A stretch of DNA of 39,515 nucleotides from Nitrospirota bacterium. Lineage in GTDB: Bacteria; Nitrospirota; UBA9217. The stretch spans positions 1-39,515 of the forward strand of contig JAJXTW010000003.1 in assembly GCA_021783455.1 (NCBI GenBank), in the 5' to 3' direction. Position 1 is the first letter of the stretch. Every line of letters starts with the position of its first letter. The notes beneath the pieces were generated by a model. That model was not told where the DNA came from. It searched no databases and saw only the letters and a program-made list of their open reading frames with translations. Made by a program: the position numbers and the translations under genes. Below, one piece after another: positions 17,186-39,376 of this stretch.

Positions 17186-17273
17186 TGGCGGAGAGGGTGG
17201 GGTTCGAACCCACGTTAGGTTTCCCTAAACACGCTTTCCAAGCGTGCGCCTTCAGCCGCTCGGCCACCTCTCC
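17186..17273 (-). tRNA. tRNA-Ser(GGA)
   Basis: Class II tRNA of 88 nt with a long variable arm, acceptor GGAGAGG/CCTCTCC, an encoded GCCA end and anticodon loop CTTGGAAAG (GGA). It reads UCC and UCU. It is the last of four serine tRNAs in the cluster. Confidence 0.97.
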
Positions 17274-17312
17274 GGTTTCTACTTATGTTATGTACTCTGA
17301 ACTACGCTTTTA

Positions 17313-17402
17313 TGGCGGAGAGGGGGGGATTTGAACCCCCGGTGGAGTTACCCCCACAACAGTTTTCGAGACTGCCGCCTTCAGCCACTCGGCCACCTCT
17401 CC
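17313..17402 (-). tRNA. tRNA-Ser(CGA)
   Basis: Class II tRNA of 90 nt with a long variable arm, acceptor GGAGAGG/CCTCTCC, CCA encoded, anticodon CGA (loop TCTCGAAAA). It reads UCG. It starts 20 bp after the tadA stop, so it is probably processed from the same transcript. Confidence 0.97.
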
Positions 17403-17422
17403 GAATTTTGACCTGAGAGCCC

Positions 17423-17896
17423 CTATTTCTGCCTGAGCTTCTCAAAAAAACCCTGAAGCATCAAGCGGCACTCAGCCTCGAGCACTCCCGGCGTAATCCG
17501 GTAGTTATGATTTAACCGTCCGTCCCGAACGACATCATATACCGACCCGAGGGCGCCTGCCTTCGGATCCCGGCATCCGTATACCAGCCGATCGACCCTT
17601 GCAAGCACCAAAGCGCCGGCGCACATGAGGCACGGTTCCAGGGTCACATACACCGTGGCATCGTGAAGTCGCCATCTGCCAAGGCGGGCCGAAGCTTCGC
17701 GGACCACGAGAAGTTCTGCATGGGCCGCGGGGTCCTGCCAGGTCTCGCGCATGTTATGCGCCGTAACGACACATTCATGGTTGATGACCAGTACGGCACC
17801 GACCGGGGTCTCGCCGATAGCAGCCGCCTTCTCCGCTTCGGCCAGAGCCATGCGCATGAAATACTCGTCGCTCTTTTGCCCCGATGTCGCTTTCAT
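17423..17896 (-). CDS. tadA: tRNA adenosine(34) deaminase TadA
   Basis: Zinc-dependent deaminase that converts A34 to inosine in tRNA-Arg(ACG). The active site is H-A-E in DPAAHAELLVVREA, with the zinc cysteines in LEPCLMCAGAL. The product is 157 aa from the ATG at 17896, normal for TadA. An upstream in-frame GTG at 17950 would run into the tRNA-Arg gene and is rejected. The ribosome binding site is weak. The gene lies 42 bp downstream of tRNA-Arg(ACG), its own substrate, and 20 bp upstream of tRNA-Ser(CGA), all on one strand. Confidence 0.95.
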   Translation of the reverse strand: MKATSGQKSDEYFMRMALAEAEKAAAIGETPVGAVLVINHECVVTAHNMRETWQDPAAHAELLVVREASARLGRWRLHDATVYVTLEPCLMCAGALVLARVDRLVYGCRDPKAGALGSVYDVVRDGRLNHNYRITPGVLEAECRLMLQGFFEKLRQK

Positions 17897-17938
17897 GATC
17901 CGTTGATACGAGGGCGTCTCCGTACTTCGCGATTTAAA

Positions 17939-18016
17939 TGGTGCGCCCAAGAGGATTCGAACCTCTGGCCTACGGATTCGTAGTCCGTTGCTCTATCCAG
18001 CTGAGCTATGGGCGCA
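17939..18016 (-). tRNA. tRNA-Arg(ACG)
   Basis: A 78-nt tRNA with acceptor TGCGCCC/GGGCGCA, D arm GCTCAGCTGGATAGAGC, anticodon loop CTACGAA (ACG), T arm AGAGG-TTCGAAT-CCTCT and encoded CCA. A34 is the substrate of the deaminase encoded next to it. Confidence 0.97.
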
Positions 18017-18017
18017 A

Positions 18018-18055
18018 ATAAAGTGCACAGATGCGCGCTTTACGCATCTGTGCCT
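18018..18055 (-). terminator. Hairpin terminator after the DUF2155-like gene
   Basis: A perfect 11-bp stem (18025-18035 with 18043-18053) and 7-nt loop, followed on the minus strand by CTTTATTT. It separates the lipoprotein gene from tRNA-Arg, although read-through into the tRNA is possible. Confidence 0.6.
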
Positions 18056-18090
18056 CATCGTGTGTGTTTCGGTCTCACGAGCCGTTGTTG

Positions 18091-18588
18091 TTACTTTGCA
18101 ACTCCGCCCACAAGCAGGATGGCTATTTTTTCGTGTTCAAAGGGATGCACGTCGGGGTGCATGGAATACAGCCAGCCCTTCCACTCCGGTTTTCCCGGCT
18201 CCTGTATGACTACCTGAACTGCCGGATTGTTCGGTTTATCCGTTGCCGAGGTGATTTCCTTGTCGGTCATCCGGAAGTCAGGCAGGAACGCAAGTACCTT
18301 GATTTTCACCTTCGTCTTCGGAATTGCCAGGTCTGATCCCACGGCAATGGTGTATTCCTTCGAACCCTTGGTGGCCTTGTCCGTAATGGCTATTTTTACG
18401 GCTTTCCATTTGGCTTTCACGTCCTTCGGAACGACGACCGTCCGTTCTACTTTGGGCGTGCCCGGCATCCCGTTTTCCATGCCAGGGTGTCCCGGCGGCA
18501 ATTGGGGCGTTGCTTCCTTCTTTTTGCATGCCCCGAATGAAACGGCTAGAATCAATACGGCGATGATTATTCCGAGCTTCTTCAGCAT
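18091..18588 (-). CDS. Lipoprotein, DUF2155-like
   Basis: Exported lipoprotein of 165 aa. The signal peptide MLKKLGIIIAVLILAVSFGA leads to lipobox Cys21, followed by KKKEATPQLPPGHPG. The mature part resembles the DUF2155 family by its ending, in which GWLYSMHPDVHPFEHEKIAI matches the usual pattern of a surface-strand Gly-Trp, a short turn, then FEHP/VEHP. DUF2155 proteins have no established function. It is inserted between tRNA-Ser(GCT) and tRNA-Arg(ACG) and followed by its own hairpin terminator. A link with the surrounding translation genes is not evident. Confidence 0.65.
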   Translation of the reverse strand: MLKKLGIIIAVLILAVSFGACKKKEATPQLPPGHPGMENGMPGTPKVERTVVVPKDVKAKWKAVKIAITDKATKGSKEYTIAVGSDLAIPKTKVKIKVLAFLPDFRMTDKEITSATDKPNNPAVQVVIQEPGKPEWKGWLYSMHPDVHPFEHEKIAILLVGGVAK

Positions 18589-18652
18589 TGTTCAATTCCC
18601 TCCTTAAACTATTTTAAATCGGGCACGACCTGCCTTGCACATCCAGCTAAAA

Positions 18653-18742
18653 TGGCGGAGAGGCCGGGATTCGAACCCGGGGTGGAGTCACCCCCACAAC
18701 TGCTTAGCAGGCAGCTGCCTTCAGCCGCTCGGCCACCTCTCC
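18653..18742 (-). tRNA. tRNA-Ser(GCT)
   Basis: Class II tRNA of 90 nt with a long variable arm, acceptor GGAGAGG/CCTCTCC, CCA encoded, anticodon loop CTGCTAA (GCT). It reads AGC and AGU. Confidence 0.97.
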
Positions 18743-18848
18743 GTGCAACGATAGTTCAAAGGACTCAGTTCCGAGTTCAGAGCAGAATTGGCCCGGCTTT
18801 TTCCGCCGCGCCGCACTCTGAACTTTTAACTCAGTACTTTACTATTTA

Positions 18849-18934
<86 letters not shown>

Positions 18935-29356: not shown

Positions 29357-29599
29357 ATGTCAGCAGATGTGAAGGCCGATCAGGTTCTCGATGCAAAGGG
29401 TTTGAGCTGTCCTCTCCCGATTTTGAAAACAAAGAAAGCGGTGGAAGCACTTTCAAAGAATCAGGTGTTAAAAGTAGAAACCACGGATCCGGGATCAAAG
29501 AATGATATGGCTTCCTGGGCAAAAAGAACGGGCAATGAGATCCTGAAAGTTGAAGAGGGATCGGGGACATTCACGTTCTTTATCAAGAAAACCGCATAA
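29357..29599 (+). CDS. tusA: TusA-family sulfur carrier protein
   Basis: Small sulfur-relay protein of 80 aa in the TusA/SirA/YeeD family, which carries sulfane sulfur as a persulfide on a cysteine. The catalytic motif is Cys18-Pro in GLSCPLPILKTKKAVEAL, followed by the typical strand LKVETTDPGSKNDMASWAKR. GGAGGTGAT lies 4 nt before the ATG. It is co-transcribed with dsrE2, ten bases downstream; this pairing is common in sulfur-oxidising and sulfite-reducing microbes, where TusA passes sulfur toward DsrEFH, DsrC or biosynthesis. Confidence 0.93.
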   Translation: MSADVKADQVLDAKGLSCPLPILKTKKAVEALSKNQVLKVETTDPGSKNDMASWAKRTGNEILKVEEGSGTFTFFIKKTA

Positions 29600-29608
29600 G
29601 GAGAAAAA

Positions 29609-30082
29609 ATGGCAAACAAGAAAATGACAATTATTGCATCGAAGGGTTCGCTGGACATGGCTTATCCTCCCTTGATCCTTGCCACCACGGCAGCAGCCAT
29701 GGATGTTGATGTTACGATATTCTTCACGTTCTTCGGTCTCGACATCATAAAAAAGGGCAATGCAGACAATCTGAAAATCTCACCCATCGGAAATCCGGCA
29801 ATGCCGATGCCGATACCCATCCCGACGTTGGTCGGGTCGCTCCCCGGCATGGAAGCCATGGCGACCTCCATGATGAAATCCATGTTCAAGAAGCACGGCG
29901 TTGCATCGATCGGAACGCTGCTCGACCTCGCCAAGGAGAGCGGTGTTAAACTCATAGCCTGCCAGATGACCATGGATGTCATGGGCGTCAAGCAGTCGGA
30001 CATCGTGGACGGGGTTGAGTTCGGCGGCGCGGCCATGTGGCTGGATGAAGCTTCTGATTCACAGATCAATCTGTTCGTGTAA
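29609..30082 (+). CDS. dsrE2: DsrE2-type sulfur-transfer protein
   Basis: DsrE/DsrF-fold protein of 157 aa with the features of the DsrE2 subgroup: MANKKMTIIASKGSLDMAYP, a hydrophobic stretch (AAMDVDVTIFFTFFGLDIIK), the Met-Pro-rich NPAMPMPIPIPT loop and the conserved Cys118 in LIACQMTMDVMG. Family members are often membrane-associated and work with TusA. It is the second gene of tusA-dsrE2 and is followed by a strong terminator. A shorter relative is encoded at 35265-35687. Confidence 0.88.
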   Translation: MANKKMTIIASKGSLDMAYPPLILATTAAAMDVDVTIFFTFFGLDIIKKGNADNLKISPIGNPAMPMPIPIPTLVGSLPGMEAMATSMMKSMFKKHGVASIGTLLDLAKESGVKLIACQMTMDVMGVKQSDIVDGVEFGGAAMWLDEASDSQINLFV

Positions 30083-31441: not shown

Positions 31442-32101
31442 TTACACTCCCTGAGATTTTATCGCGCGAATGCAGACGAAACCCGCGTTTTCAACCAACC
31501 GGTCATAAGCGATTTCATCATGAGGTTGATCGGACGGAGGCAAACAGAGCGCTGAAGAATAACGATCAATCTTTAGCCCTGAACCTGCTATCAACGATTC
31601 GGCCTCTTCGATACGGTAAAAACGGGCCTCCTGGTAGATAGGATGCCCTTGCGCTTTCTTTGTTTCATACAACTGTCCCCAAGGACTTTCTTTGTTGATC
31701 ATTCCCACGATCAACGCCCCATTCCTCTTTAAGACTCTTTTCGCTTCGGACAGCACCGCTGCCGGATCAGCAACAAAACAAAACGTAAAAAGGATAAAAA
31801 CAGCGCCGAAGGACTCATTGCCGAACGGCAACGCCTCGGCTCCTCTCTGCAAAACCCTGACTCCCCGGCTTTCAGCTATTTCAAGTTCCTTTGCAGAAGG
31901 ATCTATGCCAAGGTCAATTCCCAGCGCTTTTGCAAACCTGCCGGTGCCGACGCCGACCTCCAGAAAAGGACGTTCAATGCCTCTCATTAAAAATCGAACT
32001 GCCTCAACTTCAACCCTGAACAGTTTTTTCCCCACAGGGCTGTCGAACCACCTGTCGTAGTCTTCAGCGCGCTGATCGAAGACCGAGACCGCACCTGTCA
32101 T
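31442..32101 (-). CDS. SAM-dependent methyltransferase (class I)
   Basis: Rossmann-fold methyltransferase of the Methyltransf_11 type, 219 aa. Motif I is FLEVGVGTGRFAKALG, followed by GIDPSAKELEIAE, LPFGNESFGAVFILFTFCFV and VLSEAKRVLKRNGALIVGMI. The substrate is not evident. The start overlaps the exporter stop by 4 bp and the stop abuts the barrel start, so the three genes form one tight unit; a role in modifying the molecule handled by the exporter, perhaps a lipid, is possible but unproven. Confidence 0.85.
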   Translation of the reverse strand: MTGAVSVFDQRAEDYDRWFDSPVGKKLFRVEVEAVRFLMRGIERPFLEVGVGTGRFAKALGIDLGIDPSAKELEIAESRGVRVLQRGAEALPFGNESFGAVFILFTFCFVADPAAVLSEAKRVLKRNGALIVGMINKESPWGQLYETKKAQGHPIYQEARFYRIEEAESLIAGSGLKIDRYSSALCLPPSDQPHDEIAYDRLVENAGFVCIRAIKSQGV

Positions 32102-32898
32102 TCGATCATCCTCCTTGGCGGCTGTTTGAGATAGCGTTCTGAAAAGAGGCTGTCCTCGACGCCGATATTGTAATCTACCTTCGTGAACGTCACTTCCGTG
32201 ATATGACCGCTCTGGACGTTCTTCATCGTGCGTTTCGTCACGGTGGGGATGCCCTTCACGTCCCTGATCTCGTCGGCGGTGAATGCCTTATAAAGATCTC
32301 CTTTTTTGTCGTAGTATTCCTCTTTGAGCGGCAGAAAGCTCGTTTTGTCCACCCATGATAGTTTGTATCTGTAATCCACGTCGTCTACCTTGGGCGTGCT
32401 CTTGACCACGACGCAGTCCTTTGCGCCGATCTTTTCCTCCTTTACAACAACATGGGTATCGTCCTCCAGGTACCGTCCCGACACGTCCTCATAGGAGAAA
32501 TCCGATCCCACGAAGCTTGAGCTCTTGTCCTGCGCGGCGATCCGTCTCACCATGCTGATTGCGGGAATAAAGAGCCACCGGTCCGCGTCCCTTCCGGGGT
32601 GCTTCCAGACCATGAAGGTCATGTCCTTCACGTCGGCCGGCTGGAAGAAGTACATGAAGTACTTCTGCTCGCCGCCGGTCGTGCCGTAATTCTTTCGGAT
32701 CATGGTCATTTCGCGTATCCGCTCCTGTCCTCCGCTGCTTACAAGCTTCATCATGACCCGTGCCTTAAAATCTTTGCCTGCGTACAGAAAAGCGGTCTGC
32801 GACTTCTTCATGAGCTCCGCACCGTTGTCGGCGGCAGACGATACAGATGCAGCAAGCACGAATGCTAATACCAGCGATGTTGCGGCAACACGTTTCAT
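32098..32898 (-). CDS. LolA-like protein from internal start in the MMPL frame
   Basis: Alternative 266-aa product of the preceding frame, started at the internal ATG 32898. A signal peptide of about 24 residues precedes a LolA/LolB-like fold, suggesting a periplasmic carrier of lipids or lipoproteins that works with the MMPL exporter and outer-membrane barrel. The perfect AAGGAGG at 32906-32912 is the main support. Separate genes in this order are the family norm. Confidence 0.65.
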   Translation of the reverse strand: MKRVAATSLVLAFVLAASVSSAADNGAELMKKSQTAFLYAGKDFKARVMMKLVSSGGQERIREMTMIRKNYGTTGGEQKYFMYFFQPADVKDMTFMVWKHPGRDADRWLFIPAISMVRRIAAQDKSSSFVGSDFSYEDVSGRYLEDDTHVVVKEEKIGAKDCVVVKSTPKVDDVDYRYKLSWVDKTSFLPLKEEYYDKKGDLYKAFTADEIRDVKGIPTVTKRTMKNVQSGHITEVTFTKVDYNIGVEDSLFSERYLKQPPRRMIE

Positions 32899-35199
32899 GT
32901 TGGTTCCTCCTTCGAATAGCCAGCCCTGAAGTAAGGTGATGAGGGCCGGCAGATAGAGCATGGTCATAAGAGCGCTCAAAAGCATCATTGTTACGATAAA
33001 AGCTCCCACAGTGATATACGGCGTGAGCGGGGCGAAGATCATAACTGCGAAAGAAGCGGCAAACAGCACGGCGTTCCGCATGATCCCCTTGCCGGGCCGC
33101 GCCGCGGTCCAGCAGCAGGCGTCATGCAGGGACTCACCCGGCGCATCCACGAGCCGCTGCCTAAGGCGGCTTACAAAATGGATCGCGAAATCCACGGCCA
33201 TGCCGAGGGAGAGGCAGCTCATGACCGATATCGGCATGTCGAAGTCCTTGCCCGCGAACCCGACAGCGCCGTAGATCATGAGGACCGTGAAGATAAGAGG
33301 GATATACCCTACAAGCGCCCACTTAAACGACCGGAAGTCAAGAGCCAGGACGCAGAAGACCGCGACCACGGCAAGGAGAAAACCCTTGACCATGTCCCAG
33401 AGCACTTCATGGTTCCAGACGAGATTGAAGTAAGCTATGCCGGCCGGCTTTATCTCCATGGGCGTCGGATGGGCTTTTTTGTATTCATCCGCCGCGCTGA
33501 TCACCGTTTGCATGGCCTTTGCGTCCCAGGTCTTGAGCTGCACCCAGATGTTCGCGCGTTTGAACGGGTAGTCTACGACATTGTCCAGATCGGACGGTTT
33601 TGCGGACATGGAGAAGAGAAAAAGATACTGGCCTATGGTCTCTTTCTTATCCGGGACCGCGTCGTATTTCGGGTTGTTGTCATGGAGCACCTGGTTGATC
33701 CTTTTCACATAATCTACGACTGACGTCGTTTTTCCCACAACCGGGAGTTTTTCGAGATGACGCTGCAGGCCTTCGATATAGCGCATGGCTTCGGGCGTTT
33801 TGATGTAATCGTCATTCGGCGCGATTGCAACTATATATCCGAGGTCGGTCCCGCCGAGGGCCGCGTTCATCACCCGGTCCGCGGTGCGGACGTCGCTGTC
33901 CTTCTTGAACCACTCCACGAGGTTGTTGTTCACCTTGGTATGCGCGATGCCGGTGATTGCAATGACCGCGAGAACGAGTCCGACGGCCACGACCGTCTTT
34001 GAGTGGTCCGCGCCCAGCCCGGCGAGTTTCCTGAGGAACCGCGCGGTCCGACCGTGCTCTACGTCTTCCCTGGCGGCGATCTTCGCGATCTTTTCTTCGC
34101 TGACAAACGTGAACATAGCTGGGATGAAGCTGAAACTGAGCACCCTCAGCGCGATCGTGCCAAAGGCCACCAGCCCGCCGAAGACCTTGACCGGGATGAT
34201 GTTCATGAACAAGAGCACGCCAAACCCCGCCGCCGTGGCCAAGGCGGTGTTTCGCACGGGCCTGCTCACCGCCCGCATGGTTTCGAGGATCGCCTGTTTT
34301 TTATTCTTCGTCTCCCGGTACCGGAAGTAGAACTCGTTGAAGATGTGCATGCTGTCCGTGGCGATTGCCATCAGAAATACCGGCGCCATGGAGCTCATGA
34401 TGTGGATCGGAAAGCCCAGACCGATCAGGAGCCCCATGCTCCAGACGATGCTGATCATGGCGTCCATCATCAGGGTTATGGAAAGGAAGAGGTCCCGGAA
34501 CATGAGATACCGGACGATGAGCATAACCATGCCAGCGATAGGGGCGAACACGGCCATGAGCTTGAACATTTCAGCTCCGAAGGTGTCCCTCGCAACGGGG
34601 TCCCCCGCGACGTAGAATTTTTCCTCGCCCTTTTCCTTGGCCACGATCTCGCGTATTTTGTCTGCGATCTCCTTGCCGTTTGCCCCTTTTTCGAGGGGGG
34701 CGTAAATGGCCGTGGTCTTCCCGTCTTTTGATATGATCCGATTTATGAAGAGCGGATTCTCGTAAAGCATCTTCCGAAGCGCGTCGATGCCTTTGGCGTT
34801 TTGCGGAGCCGCGGTCATGAGCGGGGCGACTCTGAGAGTTCCATTTTCCACGGAAACATTATCGATCGTGGTAAAGCTCGACACGTCACGGGCAGCAACA
34901 CCCTTGATCTTCAGTATCTCGTCGGTGATACGCTGGATCTTGCCGAGAGTGTCCGGATTCAGGACGCCCTTCTCGTTCACAATCCCCACGGCGATCGTGT
35001 CCTCGTAGAGGCCGAAGGTCTTTTCAACGCTGTCGTTCCAGACCCTGACATCGGACGTGGCCGGAAGCATGTTCTTCGGGTTCGTGTCGGTCCGCATCTT
35101 CGGGAACTGCGTCATGAAAAGAAGCGTCAGTATTACCGTCAGGACAACGACCAGTTTCGGGTGCTCCACGGAAAACTCAACCAAGGAAAATTTGCGCAT
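32098..35199 (-). CDS. MMPL/RND exporter fused in frame to a LolA-like protein
   Basis: One uninterrupted frame of 1033 codons contains two proteins that are usually separate. Residues 1-767 are an RND/MMPL-type exporter with two periplasmic loops and about 12 membrane helices (an opening helix in VVLTVILTLLFMTQFPKMRT, then groups near 210-380 and 610-765). Residues 768-1033 begin with what looks like a cleavable signal peptide (MKRVAATSLVLAFVLAAS, site near SSAADN). They continue as an outer-membrane lipoprotein-sorting (LolA-like) domain (YFMYFFQPADVKDMTFMVWK). AAGGAGG lies 7 nt before the internal ATG at 32898, so the second part is probably also, or mainly, made as a separate 266-aa protein. 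A lost stop codon or a sequence error could explain the joining. Confidence 0.85.
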   Translation of the reverse strand: MRKFSLVEFSVEHPKLVVVLTVILTLLFMTQFPKMRTDTNPKNMLPATSDVRVWNDSVEKTFGLYEDTIAVGIVNEKGVLNPDTLGKIQRITDEILKIKGVAARDVSSFTTIDNVSVENGTLRVAPLMTAAPQNAKGIDALRKMLYENPLFINRIISKDGKTTAIYAPLEKGANGKEIADKIREIVAKEKGEEKFYVAGDPVARDTFGAEMFKLMAVFAPIAGMVMLIVRYLMFRDLFLSITLMMDAMISIVWSMGLLIGLGFPIHIMSSMAPVFLMAIATDSMHIFNEFYFRYRETKNKKQAILETMRAVSRPVRNTALATAAGFGVLLFMNIIPVKVFGGLVAFGTIALRVLSFSFIPAMFTFVSEEKIAKIAAREDVEHGRTARFLRKLAGLGADHSKTVVAVGLVLAVIAITGIAHTKVNNNLVEWFKKDSDVRTADRVMNAALGGTDLGYIVAIAPNDDYIKTPEAMRYIEGLQRHLEKLPVVGKTTSVVDYVKRINQVLHDNNPKYDAVPDKKETIGQYLFLFSMSAKPSDLDNVVDYPFKRANIWVQLKTWDAKAMQTVISAADEYKKAHPTPMEIKPAGIAYFNLVWNHEVLWDMVKGFLLAVVAVFCVLALDFRSFKWALVGYIPLIFTVLMIYGAVGFAGKDFDMPISVMSCLSLGMAVDFAIHFVSRLRQRLVDAPGESLHDACCWTAARPGKGIMRNAVLFAASFAVMIFAPLTPYITVGAFIVTMMLLSALMTMLYLPALITLLQGWLFEGGTNMKRVAATSLVLAFVLAASVSSAADNGAELMKKSQTAFLYAGKDFKARVMMKLVSSGGQERIREMTMIRKNYGTTGGEQKYFMYFFQPADVKDMTFMVWKHPGRDADRWLFIPAISMVRRIAAQDKSSSFVGSDFSYEDVSGRYLEDDTHVVVKEEKIGAKDCVVVKSTPKVDDVDYRYKLSWVDKTSFLPLKEEYYDKKGDLYKAFTADEIRDVKGIPTVTKRTMKNVQSGHITEVTFTKVDYNIGVEDSLFSERYLKQPPRRMIE

Positions 35200-35264: not shown

Positions 35265-35687
35265 CTAAAACGTAAGGTTCATATCCGCCGGGATCACGGT
35301 TTCCTTGTAATAATGCGCGGGATCGGCAACCTTCACGCCGTCGATTAATTGTTTCGGAGAGATATTGAAGAGCGACACGTTCAAGGGACAGGCAAGTACG
35401 GTCGCGCCCTCGGCGATCAGCATGAAGAAGAGATCCTCGACGGATGGAAGGTCCATTTCCTCCATCTTCTTCATCACCGCGTCGCCCTCTTCCTTCGGCT
35501 GATCAGGCAGGCACTTGAGGTCTTTCACTTTTTCTTTGTGCACCGCGTTGATGCCCCGTGAGCCGAAGAACATGGTGACCTTCGAGCCTTCCCGAAGTAA
35601 GCTAAGCGCGGTCATGAGAGCGTTGTATACCTGGCAAAGCTCGTCATGGAAGCACATGATCGATACATTTTTTATTATCTTGGTCAT
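35265..35687 (-). CDS. DsrE/DsrF-like sulfur-transfer protein
   Basis: DsrE2-like protein of 140 aa, shorter than the one at 29609. It has NVSIMCFHDELCQVYNAL, the KVTMFFGSRGIN strand and Cys100 in VLACPLNVSLFNI, which corresponds to the conserved cysteine in the DsrE2 motif. ATG 35687 has AAAGGAG just upstream. Its start lies 44 bp inside the ArsR gene, and it is the third gene of a sulfide:quinone oxidoreductase-ArsR-DsrE operon. It may accept persulfide from the oxidoreductase product or a glutathione-like carrier; this is inference. Confidence 0.8.
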   Translation of the reverse strand: MTKIIKNVSIMCFHDELCQVYNALMTALSLLREGSKVTMFFGSRGINAVHKEKVKDLKCLPDQPKEEGDAVMKKMEEMDLPSVEDLFFMLIAEGATVLACPLNVSLFNISPKQLIDGVKVADPAHYYKETVIPADMNLTF

Positions 35688-36027
35688 ACTGGTTCTCCTT
35701 TCGCATCCCCAAACCCCGATTCATTGGCGCTGGAGTATCTCCATAGAGCTGTTCCAAACCTTCCTGCATCAAGCTGCACGCCTGACAGATCTTTTCATTT
35801 GCGATTCCATAATACACATTAACGCCTTCCCGTCTCGTCGTAAGGATGCGCTCCATGCGCATGAGAGCCAGATGCTGAGACGAATTCGCCTTAGACACTC
35901 CGAGCTTCTCGGTGATCTCGCCGGCAGTCAGTTCTCCTGACCGGAGCAGACAGAGTATCTCTAGCCTCGTGGGGTTGGAGAATATCTTGCAAAAATCAGC
36001 GTGCAGTTTCAAGATCTCCTTCTTCAT
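35644..36027 (-). CDS. ArsR-family regulator, candidate persulfide sensor
   Basis: ArsR-type winged-helix repressor of 127 aa. The recognition region is GELTAGEITEKLGVSKANSS with QHLALMRMERILTTRREGVN and the wing YYGIAN. Cys26 in RLEILCLLRSGEL occupies the position of the N-terminal sensing cysteine of SqrR/BigR, and Cys81/Cys84 in EKICQACSLMQ are near the usual second one. Such proteins release DNA when the cysteines form a tetrasulfide bridge. The start at 36027 overlaps the oxidoreductase stop by 4 bp (ATGA); an earlier in-frame start at 36192 would lie wholly inside the oxidoreductase gene. The C-terminal tail runs 44 bp into the dsrE-like gene. Confidence 0.82.
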   Translation of the reverse strand: MKKEILKLHADFCKIFSNPTRLEILCLLRSGELTAGEITEKLGVSKANSSQHLALMRMERILTTRREGVNVYYGIANEKICQACSLMQEGLEQLYGDTPAPMNRGLGMRKENQYDQDNKKCIDHVLP

Positions 36028-37214
36028 GGCAGATTGCTGAGCCCCCTCTTCATCTTCCAGAGGAAGTATTTTTCGAACCGGACCTTCATCCACTTCGCCC
36101 AGATGGTCTTCTTCGTGTAGGAACTCTGGCGCGGCGGAAGCACGGGATAGGCCTTCATGTATGCTGCTGTGTTTCCCATGTCCATGAGACAAACCACGCC
36201 GATTTCCGACGGGGGAGGCGGGGTCTTCCCGGTGATGCCGGCAGCGATAGTTGCCGCGGCAATCTTCGCCATCTTCACCGTCATAAATCCGGTCTTGGGA
36301 ACGCCCGTCGGCACCGGCGTCGCCTCCGGCGGTGCAATGGCCATGGTAACACCGACGGCAAAAATATTTTTATATTTCGTGTGACGATAGTTCTTGTCAA
36401 CCGGGATGAACCCGCGGGGATTTCCCAGCGGCATGACGGCAGGCACACCTTTGAACGGCGGCGCGATCATGGCGAGTTTGAAAGGCAGCTTTGTGCCGTC
36501 CTTGAGCTTGATTTCTCCGGGCGTCACCTCTTCAATGGCCTGGCTGATGAGGGGCTTGATGTCCCGCTCGGCAAATTCGTCTTCCATGAAGCGCTTTGAT
36601 TTGCCGAGACCGCCGACGCCCATGTGGCCGAGATAGGGTTCCGAGGTGAGATAGAGGATGGGTACTTTGCTACGTATTTTCCGGCGGCGAAGCTCGGTGT
36701 CCATCTCAAACGCGAGCTCATAGGACGGGCCGAAACAGCTCACCATCTGCGACGAGCCGACAACAATCGGACCGGGGTTCTCCAGGATCTTTTTCCACGA
36801 TTGCCCGGCTCTTAATGCATGATCGAGGGTAAACGTACAGTCGGTATGGCCCCTGTCAGGTCCCAACCCGGGGATCTCATCAAAGGAAAGATGCGGTCCC
36901 GTAGATATTACGAGAAAGTCATAGGGCAGCTCTTTCCCTTTAGCCGTGATGACCTTCGATGACTCAGCGTCAACCTGTTTTGCCGCATCGTGGACGAAAT
37001 CGATCTCTTTGGGTTTAAGAATCTCGCTCACCTTGAGGGTAATATCTTCCGGCTTTCTCCACCCCATGATAAGCCACGGCAGCGACGGAAGGAATACGAA
37101 TCGATCATCGTCGCTCACCACGGTCACGTCGGCTTTCTTCCCGAGCAGACGCTTAAGCTCGAAGGCCGCTGTCAATCCCCCGAACGATCCCCCTAACACA
37201 ACGATCCTTGACAT
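36024..37214 (-). CDS. sqr: Sulfide:quinone oxidoreductase-like flavoprotein
   Basis: FAD-dependent, two-dinucleotide-binding-domain oxidoreductase of 396 aa that would oxidise sulfide to polysulfide or persulfide and reduce membrane quinone. The N-terminal VVLGGSFGGLTAAFEL binds FAD. All three cysteines expected of classical SQR are present: Cys126 (RGHTDCTFTLDHA), Cys160 (MVSCFGPSYEL) and Cys342 (GVVCLMDMGNT). The C-terminal region carries the basic and aromatic WAKWMKVRFEKYFLWKMKRG, likely for membrane attachment. ATG 37214 has AGGAGAGG upstream. It heads the pair with the ArsR regulator, and a dihaem cytochrome precedes it. Confidence 0.88.
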   Translation of the reverse strand: MSRIVVLGGSFGGLTAAFELKRLLGKKADVTVVSDDDRFVFLPSLPWLIMGWRKPEDITLKVSEILKPKEIDFVHDAAKQVDAESSKVITAKGKELPYDFLVISTGPHLSFDEIPGLGPDRGHTDCTFTLDHALRAGQSWKKILENPGPIVVGSSQMVSCFGPSYELAFEMDTELRRRKIRSKVPILYLTSEPYLGHMGVGGLGKSKRFMEDEFAERDIKPLISQAIEEVTPGEIKLKDGTKLPFKLAMIAPPFKGVPAVMPLGNPRGFIPVDKNYRHTKYKNIFAVGVTMAIAPPEATPVPTGVPKTGFMTVKMAKIAAATIAAGITGKTPPPPSEIGVVCLMDMGNTAAYMKAYPVLPPRQSSYTKKTIWAKWMKVRFEKYFLWKMKRGLSNLP

Positions 37215-37264
37215 AATAACCTCTCCTTTCTGCATGTATCTGCGTGACAGATCTTGTTCAAATT

Positions 37265-37939
37265 TTATTTACTGCGTCCATACCGTGTCAGATAACCGAC
37301 GACCTCTGTCTTTTCATTATCCGTAATTATCTTTTTGCCCATGGATCGCATATTGGACTGCATTCTATCTACGACTTTGGGCCATTCGTCGGCTGTATGA
37401 AGCTTTGGGTCCGGAAGAGGATGACACTGCGAGCACGTCTCCTTAAAGAGGACGGCGCCTTGTGATCCAGGGGCAGGAAGTTCGCTGGGAGACAGGGACT
37501 TCATGGCATTGGTCTTTAAGTAAGACACGATCGCCTGTTGTTCTTCGGACGATGGCAACTCTACATTCATCATTCCTATCATGGCGGACATCATGGACAT
37601 GCGAGAGAACATCCGCGAGGTTACGCCCGGCCATTGCTCGGCCGTATGCATTGCCGGACTAGGGAGGTTGTGACATTGGGTGCAATAGCGGACCAGAAGT
37701 TTGGCCCCTGGGCTGTCCGGCAAAGGAAGGTCTTCCGGTGTGATCCCAAGCGGGAGCATGTCCGGCATCATCCTTTGCATCATTTCTTTCATTCCTCCCC
37801 GGCCCATCATTCCACCGCTCGTCATCATGCCTCCAGGCATCCCTAATTGACTGCTCCCGGACCCATGCATTGCGACAATACCTGTTATCCCGAATACGAT
37901 CAAAACAATCGCAATTATCAGCAATCGAATATTCTTCAT
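37265..37939 (-). CDS. Membrane-anchored dihaem c-type cytochrome
   Basis: A 224-aa protein with an N-terminal hydrophobic anchor (about residues 4-24), a Met/Gly-rich stretch (GMPGGMMTSGGMMGRGGMKE) and two haem-binding motifs, C86-TQ-CH90 and C169-SQ-CH173. The two halves repeat (HNLPSPAMHTAEQW and HPLPDPKLHTADEW), suggesting an internal duplication. It is probably periplasmic and tethered to the inner membrane. It lies 50 bp upstream of the SQR-like gene on the same strand, so it may take electrons from the quinone pool or from sulfur oxidation; the partner is unknown. Confidence 0.87.
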   Translation of the reverse strand: MKNIRLLIIAIVLIVFGITGIVAMHGSGSSQLGMPGGMMTSGGMMGRGGMKEMMQRMMPDMLPLGITPEDLPLPDSPGAKLLVRYCTQCHNLPSPAMHTAEQWPGVTSRMFSRMSMMSAMIGMMNVELPSSEEQQAIVSYLKTNAMKSLSPSELPAPGSQGAVLFKETCSQCHPLPDPKLHTADEWPKVVDRMQSNMRSMGKKIITDNEKTEVVGYLTRYGRSK

Positions 37940-37955
37940 GGCGCATTGACTCCCA

Positions 37956-38288
37956 CTATGAAATATCCTTTTTTATCTTTTCATACTCTTCTTTGGTGAT
38001 TTCCCCCTGAGCATATCTTCTTTTCAGAACATCAAGCGCCGTTTCCTGTGGCTGCGGCCCGCGATCTTTCTCAACAACCGCTACTATCCATCGGACAAGC
38101 AGGACGATCCCGGCGATTACGGCAATCCAGAATCCGACCATGATGACGCTCATGAACCAACCCATACCGTATCCCCATCCCATCATTCCAGGCCCCATAC
38201 CGTAACCACCGCCCGGACCCTGTGCAAAAGCATATGAAGCCTCGCTGAGATAGACCGCTGTTATGAATGTTCGTAATGCTTTTTTCAT
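37956..38288 (-). CDS. Small membrane protein with SHOCT domain
   Basis: A 110-aa protein with an N-terminal signal or anchor (MKKALRTFITAVYLSEASYA), a Gly/Met/Tyr-rich stretch, a membrane helix (VIMVGFWIAVIAGIVLLVRW) and a C-terminal SHOCT motif (DVLKRRYAQGEITKEEYEKI). SHOCT proteins are widespread short proteins of uncertain function, often in electron-transfer or envelope operons. AGGAG precedes the ATG. It lies 16 bp before the cytochrome gene, so the two are probably co-expressed. Confidence 0.8.
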   Translation of the reverse strand: MKKALRTFITAVYLSEASYAFAQGPGGGYGMGPGMMGWGYGMGWFMSVIMVGFWIAVIAGIVLLVRWIVAVVEKDRGPQPQETALDVLKRRYAQGEITKEEYEKIKKDIS

Positions 38289-38363: not shown

Positions 38364-38645
38364 TCAAAACATTCCTGTGACCTTTTCGCCGCTCGTTATA
38401 ATGTCCGTCAATTTATCGTAGTCGATAATTTTGACCCGATCATCCATCTCGGTATCCTTGAGACCCCGGAGCCTCTTGTCGTCATCCAGGACATACACTG
38501 TCCGGGCAAAATCGCCGAGCCGTTCTTTTTTCGCAAAATACACGCCATTCTGCAGCAAGATAAGATCGGCCCCGCTTTCTTTCGCAAGAGTCAATCCGAG
38601 TGCTCCATCAGTCGTATCCGGCGCGCTCTTTATCATCACGAACAT
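38364..38645 (-). CDS. tusB: DsrH/TusB-like protein
   Basis: Third member of a TusD-TusC-TusB (DsrEFH) set, 93 aa, with the DsrH-like pattern MFVMIKSAPDTTDGALGL, GADLILLQNGVYFA and RTVYVLDDDKRLRG. TusBCD complexes pass sulfur from TusA to TusE/DsrC. This subunit contains no cysteine, so it would be structural here. It starts 11 bp after tusC. The 75 bp to the SHOCT gene show nothing notable. Confidence 0.78.
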   Translation of the reverse strand: MFVMIKSAPDTTDGALGLTLAKESGADLILLQNGVYFAKKERLGDFARTVYVLDDDKRLRGLKDTEMDDRVKIIDYDKLTDIITSGEKVTGMF

Positions 38646-38656
38646 AGCAGCCTCCT

Positions 38657-39010
38657 CTAGAATATCATGGTCGATTTTGCTTCCTTCAGCAGTCCCGCAA
38701 TCTCTTTGGCGCCGACCACCTTGACGTTTTCGACGAGCTCGTTTGACGGGACCCCCTGCGTTTTGAGCGACGCAGTGTCGGCATAGACGGCGACTCCCAT
38801 TTCGACGCAGTCCTTGAGAGTGCCTTCGAGATTCGTGAAGCCGGTACCTTTGTCGTCCTGCCCCTTCTTTGCAAGCAGCACCCCGCCATCGACCAGAATG
38901 AGGTCAACGCTTAATTCCCCGGACACCGCGCCGAGGGCGTGGCGCACGGCCTCGGCTGCGTTGATGTCGCCGTAGGGAGATCTCTTCAGGATCATTGCAA
39001 CATTTGCCAT
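38657..39010 (-). CDS. tusC: DsrF/TusC-like protein
   Basis: DsrE/F-fold subunit of 117 aa (ANVAMILKRSPYGDINAAEA, VDLILVDGGVLLAKKGQD, VENVKVVGAKEIAGLL). It has one cysteine (LKDCVEMGV). The family forms heterohexamers with TusD and TusB in sulfur relay. AGGAGG lies 5 nt before the ATG, and the TAG that closes the upstream TusD-like frame overlaps this ribosome binding site, which shows tight packing. Confidence 0.82.
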   Translation of the reverse strand: MANVAMILKRSPYGDINAAEAVRHALGAVSGELSVDLILVDGGVLLAKKGQDDKGTGFTNLEGTLKDCVEMGVAVYADTASLKTQGVPSNELVENVKVVGAKEIAGLLKEAKSTMIF

Positions 39011-39019
39011 ACGCTCCTC

Positions 39020-39376
39020 CTATGCACCGAGATTAATCCACACGTCCGTCTCGCCCATGGTTGCAAACAGGCCTTTGAGCGAGCCGACTTCCGTACCTGC
39101 AAGATAGTCTTCTTTCGCTGCACGGCGAAAGTTGAGGCACCCGCCTCAGAGATACACCTTCAAGCCTTTTTGTATGAGCCTGGTGAACTCCTCCTCGGCG
39201 TTCAGAATGCCTTTCGCTTTCTGTTTGGTCAGGAAACAATAGATTCCGTCAGCCGATGCGATGAGATTGACGGTATGGCCCTTGTTCAAAGCGGATTCGG
39301 CAATGCGGGCGCTTGTTAGTGTGTTCTCGTAGGAATACGGCGAGGTGGTCAGATACAGCGTAACGGTTTTCGGCAT
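39020..39376 (-). CDS. tusD: TusD/DsrE-like candidate selenoprotein (in-frame TGA at residue 77)
   Basis: DsrE/TusD-fold sulfur-transfer subunit. The frame MPKTVTLYLTTSPYSYENTL and onward reaches LKVYL, then a TGA at 39148-39146. It continues as GGCLNFRRAAKEDYLAGTEV, GSLKGLFATMGETDVWINLG and a final Ala, stopping at TAG (39022-39020). Counting the TGA as selenocysteine gives 118 aa with U77 in a U-GGC motif, at the position of the catalytic Cys78 of TusD/DsrE. Without readthrough the protein would lack its active site, and a 135-nt gap would open in an otherwise tight operon. A hairpin suited to a bacterial SECIS follows the TGA. AAGGAGG precedes the start. The alternative is a nonsense mutation of a TGC/TGT codon. 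DsrE-like selenoproteins have been reported before in delta-type symbionts, as I recall. Confidence 0.8.
39112..39131 (-). promoter_or_regulatory. Candidate bacterial SECIS hairpin
   Basis: On the RNA, CUUUCGC pairs with GCGAAAG (7 bp, perfect) around the loop CGUGCA. The stem begins 14 nt and the loop 21 nt after the UGA. Known bacterial SECIS elements place a small loop with G (often GU) among its first bases at about this distance, so it is a plausible SelB binding site. Confidence 0.65.

Follow-up and report, generated by a model that had tools for sequence, protein, structure and literature searches.

A predicted selenocysteine-containing DsrE-like protein in an SQR-linked dsrEFH-type operon of Nitrospirota

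In the DsrEFH complex of A. vinosum sulfur is bound at DsrE-Cys78 and delivered to DsrC, and Cys20 of the DsrH subunit is essential (PMC3397948). In the DsrEFH type II of cable bacteria DsrE-Cys67 receives its sulfur from TusA and passes it to DsrC; the 2026 survey of types I and II reports this cysteine as conserved in 99.3% and does not mention selenium (PMC13293266). DsrE-like selenoproteins with the motif UxxC have been known since 2005; described cases come from the Sargasso Sea (PMC1088965), from Desulfovibrio vulgaris (PMC1794560) and, as two groups, "DsrE 1/DsrE 2", from the GOS data (PMC2398784). The initial annotation of the present locus had stated that such proteins were predicted in other sulfur bacteria. 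Two selenoprotein reviews name both DsrE and Nitrospirota; one of them, from 2026, places DsrE-like proteins among the selenoproteins with largely unclear function and names the two in separate mentions (PMC13188914). In the open-licence literature (subscription journals lay outside the search) we found no paper that treats selenocysteine and TusD together; a Sulfobacillus genome paper mentions DsrEFH and selenocysteine once each. An active-site selenocysteine (Sec) in a DsrEFH-type complex linked to sulfide:quinone oxidoreductase (SQR) appears to be undescribed in this literature.

The gene considered here lies in a 39,515-nt stretch of DNA from a Nitrospirota bacterium (contig JAJXTW010000003.1), referred to below as the window. 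The genome assembly has 2.8 Mb in 302 contigs and is 89% complete.

The gene, its in-frame UGA and the predicted fold

39020..39376, minus strand: dsrE/tusD-like gene, putative selenoprotein of 118 aa with U77-G-G-C80, stop TAG; Pfam DsrE 53.2 bits (cutoff 22.7)
39146..39148, minus strand: proposed Sec codon 77 (in-frame UGA), in the column of the catalytic Cys78 of E. coli TusD
39112..39131, minus strand: SECIS-like hairpin, 7-bp stem CUUUCGC/GCGAAAG, 6-nt loop CGUGCA
38657..39010, minus strand: dsrF/tusC-like subunit; Pfam DsrE 60.9 bits; TIGR03010 41.3 bits, below cutoff
38364..38645, minus strand: dsrH/tusB-like subunit; Pfam DsrH 39.7 bits; TIGR03011 40.1 bits, below cutoff

The frame runs from an ATG at 39376 to the TGA at 39148-39146 (codon 77), the single in-frame TGA, and on through 41 codons to a TAG at 39022-39020 that shares bases with the AGGAGG of the following dsrF/tusC-like gene (ATG at 39010). 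The initial annotation had placed one TGA at residue 77 of this frame, followed by 41 DsrE-like codons and a TAG overlapping the tusC ribosome binding site; its coordinates were right to the base, and the read-through product, in which UxxC is present, matches Pfam DsrE over its full length. The codons 3′ of the UGA have dN/dS values of 0.03-0.19 and, by this measure, are under purifying selection. TGA also serves as the ordinary stop of the dsrH/tusB-like gene in the same operon (at 38364), so it is not reassigned genome-wide, and the ORF caller terminates dsrE at 39146. A general reading of TGA as tryptophan in this organism was rejected on the stop codon of dsrH and on the cysteines in the aligned column of homologues.

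In the AlphaFold2 model of the protein (pLDDT 91.7), residue 77 closes the strand 73-77 and the helix 78-83 comes next, and the top Foldseek hits include YchN (1jx7), DsrE (2hy5_A) and TusD (2d1p_A). A profile search against the PDB also gave matches, the best to YchN, and several designed PPR repeat proteins came up by chance, while phmmer with the single Sec protein found no match in the PDB. No NCBIfam family matches the Sec protein, and the dsrF and dsrH products match theirs below cutoff. The Sec column aligns with Cys78 of E. coli K-12 TusD, and on this alignment residue 77 is at the active-site position of TusD. Since an NCBIfam match is absent and TusD has CxxA, the protein is, judged from its sequence, DsrE-like with UxxC, in the manner of YchN (CxxC), and not a TusD equivalog. 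This refines the initial annotation, which had called the frame TusD-like. Features of a TusD/DsrE subunit that were found are the residue at the Cys78 position, the DsrE fold, and adjacent dsrF/tusC and dsrH/tusB genes.

Homologues, hairpin and selenocysteine machinery

Searched with peptide patterns that leave out residue 77, 84,980 species genomes yielded 80 loci, in which the residue-77 codon is UGA in 72, Cys in 8 (TGC in 7, TGT in 1) and anything else in none. The Cys/Sec pairing anticipated at this residue was thus found, and not one of the 80 loci has neither Cys nor Sec there. The 72 TGA loci comprise 70 clean genes, one with UGTS (L102) and one with a frameshift after U (L104). The UGA genes split into clade A (YLUGGC, 51 rows including the window) and clade B (DIUTGC, 19 rows), which join with moderate support (92/75), so that a single origin of both Sec clades is likely rather than demonstrated. 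Sec77-x-x-Cys80 is present in every intact Sec-type gene but one, L102 (1770-2120), a member of clade A that has lost the second Cys and is possibly a degenerating or divergent copy. All UGA-gene records that name a phylum are from Nitrospirota but one (L099, Nitrospinota); the Cys-type genes are from other Nitrospirota, Chloroflexota and one Bacillota. Viral contigs gave 17 pattern matches, none of them confirmed as a relative, and the plasmids scanned held only haloarchaeal Cys-type DsrE of ~32% identity and no Sec-type gene. An in-frame TGA was also seen in a third, distant DsrE subfamily (FAUGTC) in three genomes of another Nitrospirota family (L037 in G035, L038 in G027, and G018:C170); this subfamily is nearer to YchN-like proteins.

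The genome of the window contains a second UGA-containing dsrE copy, 95% identical and with the same TGA. It forms a second dsrE-dsrF set (G000:C195:2853-3206; L008, L139) on a contig that stops past dsrF, with an ArsR-type regulator and a TauE/SafE-exporter-like membrane protein upstream.

The hairpin (CUUUCGC-CGUGCA-GCGAAAG) starts 14 nt past the UGA, exactly where the initial annotation had drawn it (39131-39112), and its loop starts 21 nt past the UGA with a G at the second position; a hairpin directly 3′ of the UGA whose small apical loop contains a G is the feature given for bacterial selenoproteins (PMC1088965). A 49-nt stretch containing it folds with -18.5 kcal/mol (z = -2.42), and 48-nt foldings gave modest z-scores against mononucleotide shuffles. 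These modest scores are due to the short stem, and tests on codons took their place. Of the stem pairs in 49 genes of clade A, 93.9% are formed, and 28 genes form all seven, compared with a mean of 75.3% (maximum 81.6%) and 4 genes (maximum 11) when synonymous codons were redrawn at family usage in 500 draws; relatedness inflates such conservation counts. The excess of codon identity over expectation is 0.384 in codons 82-88 vs 0.046 in codons 1-76, the highest codon-identity windows of the whole gene sit over the hairpin, and synonymous sites outside it are near saturation in the more distant pairs (dS ~1 or not computable). Arginine has six codons, yet 48/49 of the clade A genes use CGC for Arg84 and 46/49 use CGT for Arg85. 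Against this stands the middle stem pair, which is a U-C mismatch in 6 and a C-A mismatch in 8 of 53 clade A sequences. One stem pair of clade B is G-C in 8, C-G in 4, U-A in 2 and unpaired in 5 of the 19 sequences, an exchange that goes with amino-acid changes on both sides. By these measures the hairpin is conserved at the codon level and covarying. A comparable hairpin is absent from the four Cys-type Nitrospirota homologues examined.

The selenocysteine genes that had been named for a search, selA, selB, selC and selD, are represented in the genome by selA (contig C43, 616 bits), the N-terminal part of selB (231 bits, cut by the end of the same contig), selD (contig C150, 377 bits), which has its own in-frame TGA, and a tRNA-Sec with UCA anticodon (contig C256, 61.2 bits vs a gathering threshold of 47). 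The selD gene (G000:C150:1439-2353, L137) is itself likely a selenoprotein gene, as in many relatives. Across 61 genomes, with tRNA-Sec counted as present at a hit of ~60 bits or more, Sec-type DsrE occurs in 19 of the 28 that have tRNA-Sec vs none of the 33 that lack it (p = 2e-9, uncorrected for kinship).

If the UGA were a plain stop, a 76-residue protein would be made from a gene whose remainder has decayed. The use of TGA as a stop elsewhere in the operon and the ending of the gene at 39146 by the ORF caller agree with this, but the purifying selection past the UGA, its pairing solely with Cys, the conserved hairpin and the two UGA copies in one genome argue strongly against it, as does the DsrE fold, which would lose its last strands and helices without the 3′ part; we regard a plain stop as extremely improbable. 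The same low probability is given to a UGA read as Trp or Cys, by reassignment or suppression, and to a sequencing error. Near-cognate suppression does occur in general, but the aligned column has Cys and never Trp, and tRNA-Sec is present together with selA, selB and a selD that itself has an in-frame TGA. Most of the sequences come from metagenome assemblies, and because the same TGA recurs in independent assemblies from many sites, an error at this codon is very unlikely. The reading in which the gene at 39020..39376 encodes a selenoprotein with Sec77 is strongly supported by these comparisons.

Operon and genome context

37956..38288, minus strand: small SHOCT-domain membrane protein (local insertion)
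37265..37939, minus strand: c-type cytochrome (local insertion)
36024..37235, minus strand: SQR; PDB 3hyv SQR, E=9.5e-96
35644..36027, minus strand: ArsR-family regulator; NF033788 78.4 bits; likely ATG at 36027 overlaps the SQR stop
35265..35687, minus strand: DsrE2-like protein (Pfam DrsE_2, 53 bits), conserved position
32098..35199, minus strand: MMPL transporter fused to a LolA-like domain, operon member in other loci too
29357..29600, plus strand: TusA sulfur carrier; Pfam TusA 84.4 bits
29609..30082, plus strand: DsrE2 (Pfam DrsE_2, 189 bits), adjoining tusA

In the relatives, genes for other sulfur-carrier subunits always adjoin the Sec-type dsrE. The genes run dsrE(Sec)-dsrF-dsrH-SQR in almost every clade A locus and in about half of those of clade B, several of which have no SQR within the flanking DNA examined. 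Downstream of SQR the Sec-type loci usually have an ArsR and/or a DsrE2-like gene and then MMPL; among the partners, DsrF/TusC, DsrH/TusB and SQR are the conserved ones, often joined by ArsR, DsrE2-like and MMPL. An ArsR-type gene stands upstream of dsrE in several loci, and co-directional genes follow past MMPL. The SQR/dsrEFH operon almost always includes the MMPL gene; MMPL-LolA is one 1033-aa gene in the window and two adjacent genes in L053, L059 and L086. The Cys-type loci retain dsrE and dsrF; in most of them an ArsR gene precedes the pair and a more distant SQR-like protein follows.

The initial annotation had described the context as SQR, a persulfide-type regulator and a cytochrome. 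SQR is indeed conserved, but the cytochrome (37265-37939) has a match in none of the 80 loci and was rejected as part of the system. The SHOCT protein (37956-38288) has matches in only two of the 80 loci, both Cys-type and from Chloroflexota, and, of the Sec-type loci compared, only the one in this genome has the cytochrome and SHOCT genes inserted between dsrH and SQR. The ArsR-family protein scores 54 bits against the BigR model, below its cutoff of 155.

The dsrF/tusC-like product has no Cys at the aligned active-site position, and the dsrH/tusB-like product, whose gene ends in TGA, has no Cys at all. TusA and DsrE2 (29357-30082) are encoded 9 kb from the Sec operon. Elsewhere in the window, four tRNA-Ser genes and a tRNA-Arg gene are clustered at 17186-18934 on the minus strand.

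On another contig of the genome (C272) are dsrAB, a dsrC ending in Gly-Cys-Val, a Cys-type dsrE-dsrF-dsrH set and dsrMKJOP-like genes, the last read from sequence. The Cys-type DsrE beside dsrC has CxxC too (VCEAC). With this set in the same genome, the Sec set is thus a second, SQR-linked one.

Proposed role and comparison with described systems

We propose that UGA77 is decoded as Sec by SelB and tRNA-Sec, aided by the hairpin just downstream, and that the product would be the DsrE (TusD-like) subunit of a DsrEFH/TusBCD-type complex formed with the next two gene products. The selenolate of Sec77, backed by Cys80, would replace the persulfide-carrying Cys78 of TusD/DsrE. It would most likely take the sulfane sulfur released by SQR as Se-SH, directly or via TusA/DsrE2, with Cys80 resolving or regenerating Sec77, and the sulfur would then be handed to DsrC and oxidized through the Dsr pathway. 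As a whole, a selenoprotein DsrE that carries sulfane sulfur from SQR through Sec77 to DsrC is the best explanation of the locus and, in our judgment, a quite probable one. The lack of Cys in DsrH counts against a carrier when compared with DsrH-Cys20 of A. vinosum, and it would also make the Sec subunit the likely transfer site. The Sec complex may serve a partner other than DsrC, since a Cys-type dsrEFH set already stands beside dsrC in the genome.

The main rival accepts a real selenoprotein and makes it a UxxC redox enzyme rather than a sulfane-sulfur carrier, for example one that reduces polysulfide or persulfide to sulfide or resets another protein of the operon. A redox role of the thiol-disulfide type would also fit the motif UxxC, in place of which TusD has CxxA, and the retention of Sec77-x-x-Cys80 in every intact Sec-type gene but L102 points the same way, as do the listing of known DsrE-like selenoproteins with UxxC as a redox motif (PMC1088965, PMC13188914) and the position of YchN (CxxC) as the closest solved sequence and fold. 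However, the three-subunit gene order dsrE-F-H is kept as in the sulfur-carrier complexes, and a second Cys is compatible with carriage, the Cys-type DsrE beside dsrC having CxxC as well. We consider such a redox function in place of carriage unlikely and retain the carrier model.

What appears new is that a known selenoprotein domain is placed in a defined operon conserved across Nitrospirota, which suggests a role for it. One step further, there would be a third, selenium-based kind of DsrEFH, widespread in Nitrospirota, in which SQR-derived sulfur is loaded on the Sec of DsrE as Se-SH and the selenium supply governs sulfide oxidation; we lean only slightly toward this wider proposal. If it is true, selenium chemistry would enter the central step of sulfur trafficking in microbes, and surveys that follow sulfur oxidation by marker genes (e.g. 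for DsrEFH types I and II) would miss a conserved Nitrospirota system, because gene callers cut this DsrE at the UGA. The DsrE-like selenoprotein family would gain a concrete operon and a testable role, for which the Cys-type relatives in Chloroflexota, Bacillota and other Nitrospirota are natural controls.

E. coli YchN is the best sequence and fold match to the Sec protein and has CxxC at the same position, but with Cys in place of Sec; it forms a homohexamer and, to our knowledge, is not in a DsrF/DsrH complex. With E. coli TusBCD and the A. vinosum DsrEFH (type I) the locus shares the adjacent E-F-H (D-C-B) genes, the fold of the E/D subunit and the Cys78 position, but here the residue is Sec and not Cys, the motif is UxxC and not CxxA, and DsrH is without Cys. 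DsrEFH type II, compared by description, is likewise a divergent DsrEFH found in Nitrospirota with its sulfur on the equivalent residue; that residue is Cys67 and the genes lie next to yeeE/tusA (PMC13293266). The conserved neighbours found at the Sec loci are SQR, ArsR, DsrE2-like and MMPL genes. The DsrE-like selenoproteins reported earlier, also compared by description, are alike in the DsrE domain, in Sec within UxxC and in the SECIS-like hairpin; in the available passages of those reports the family is listed without operon or function (PMC1088965, PMC1794560, PMC2398784), whereas here it would be a subunit encoded in a dsrE-dsrF-dsrH-SQR operon.
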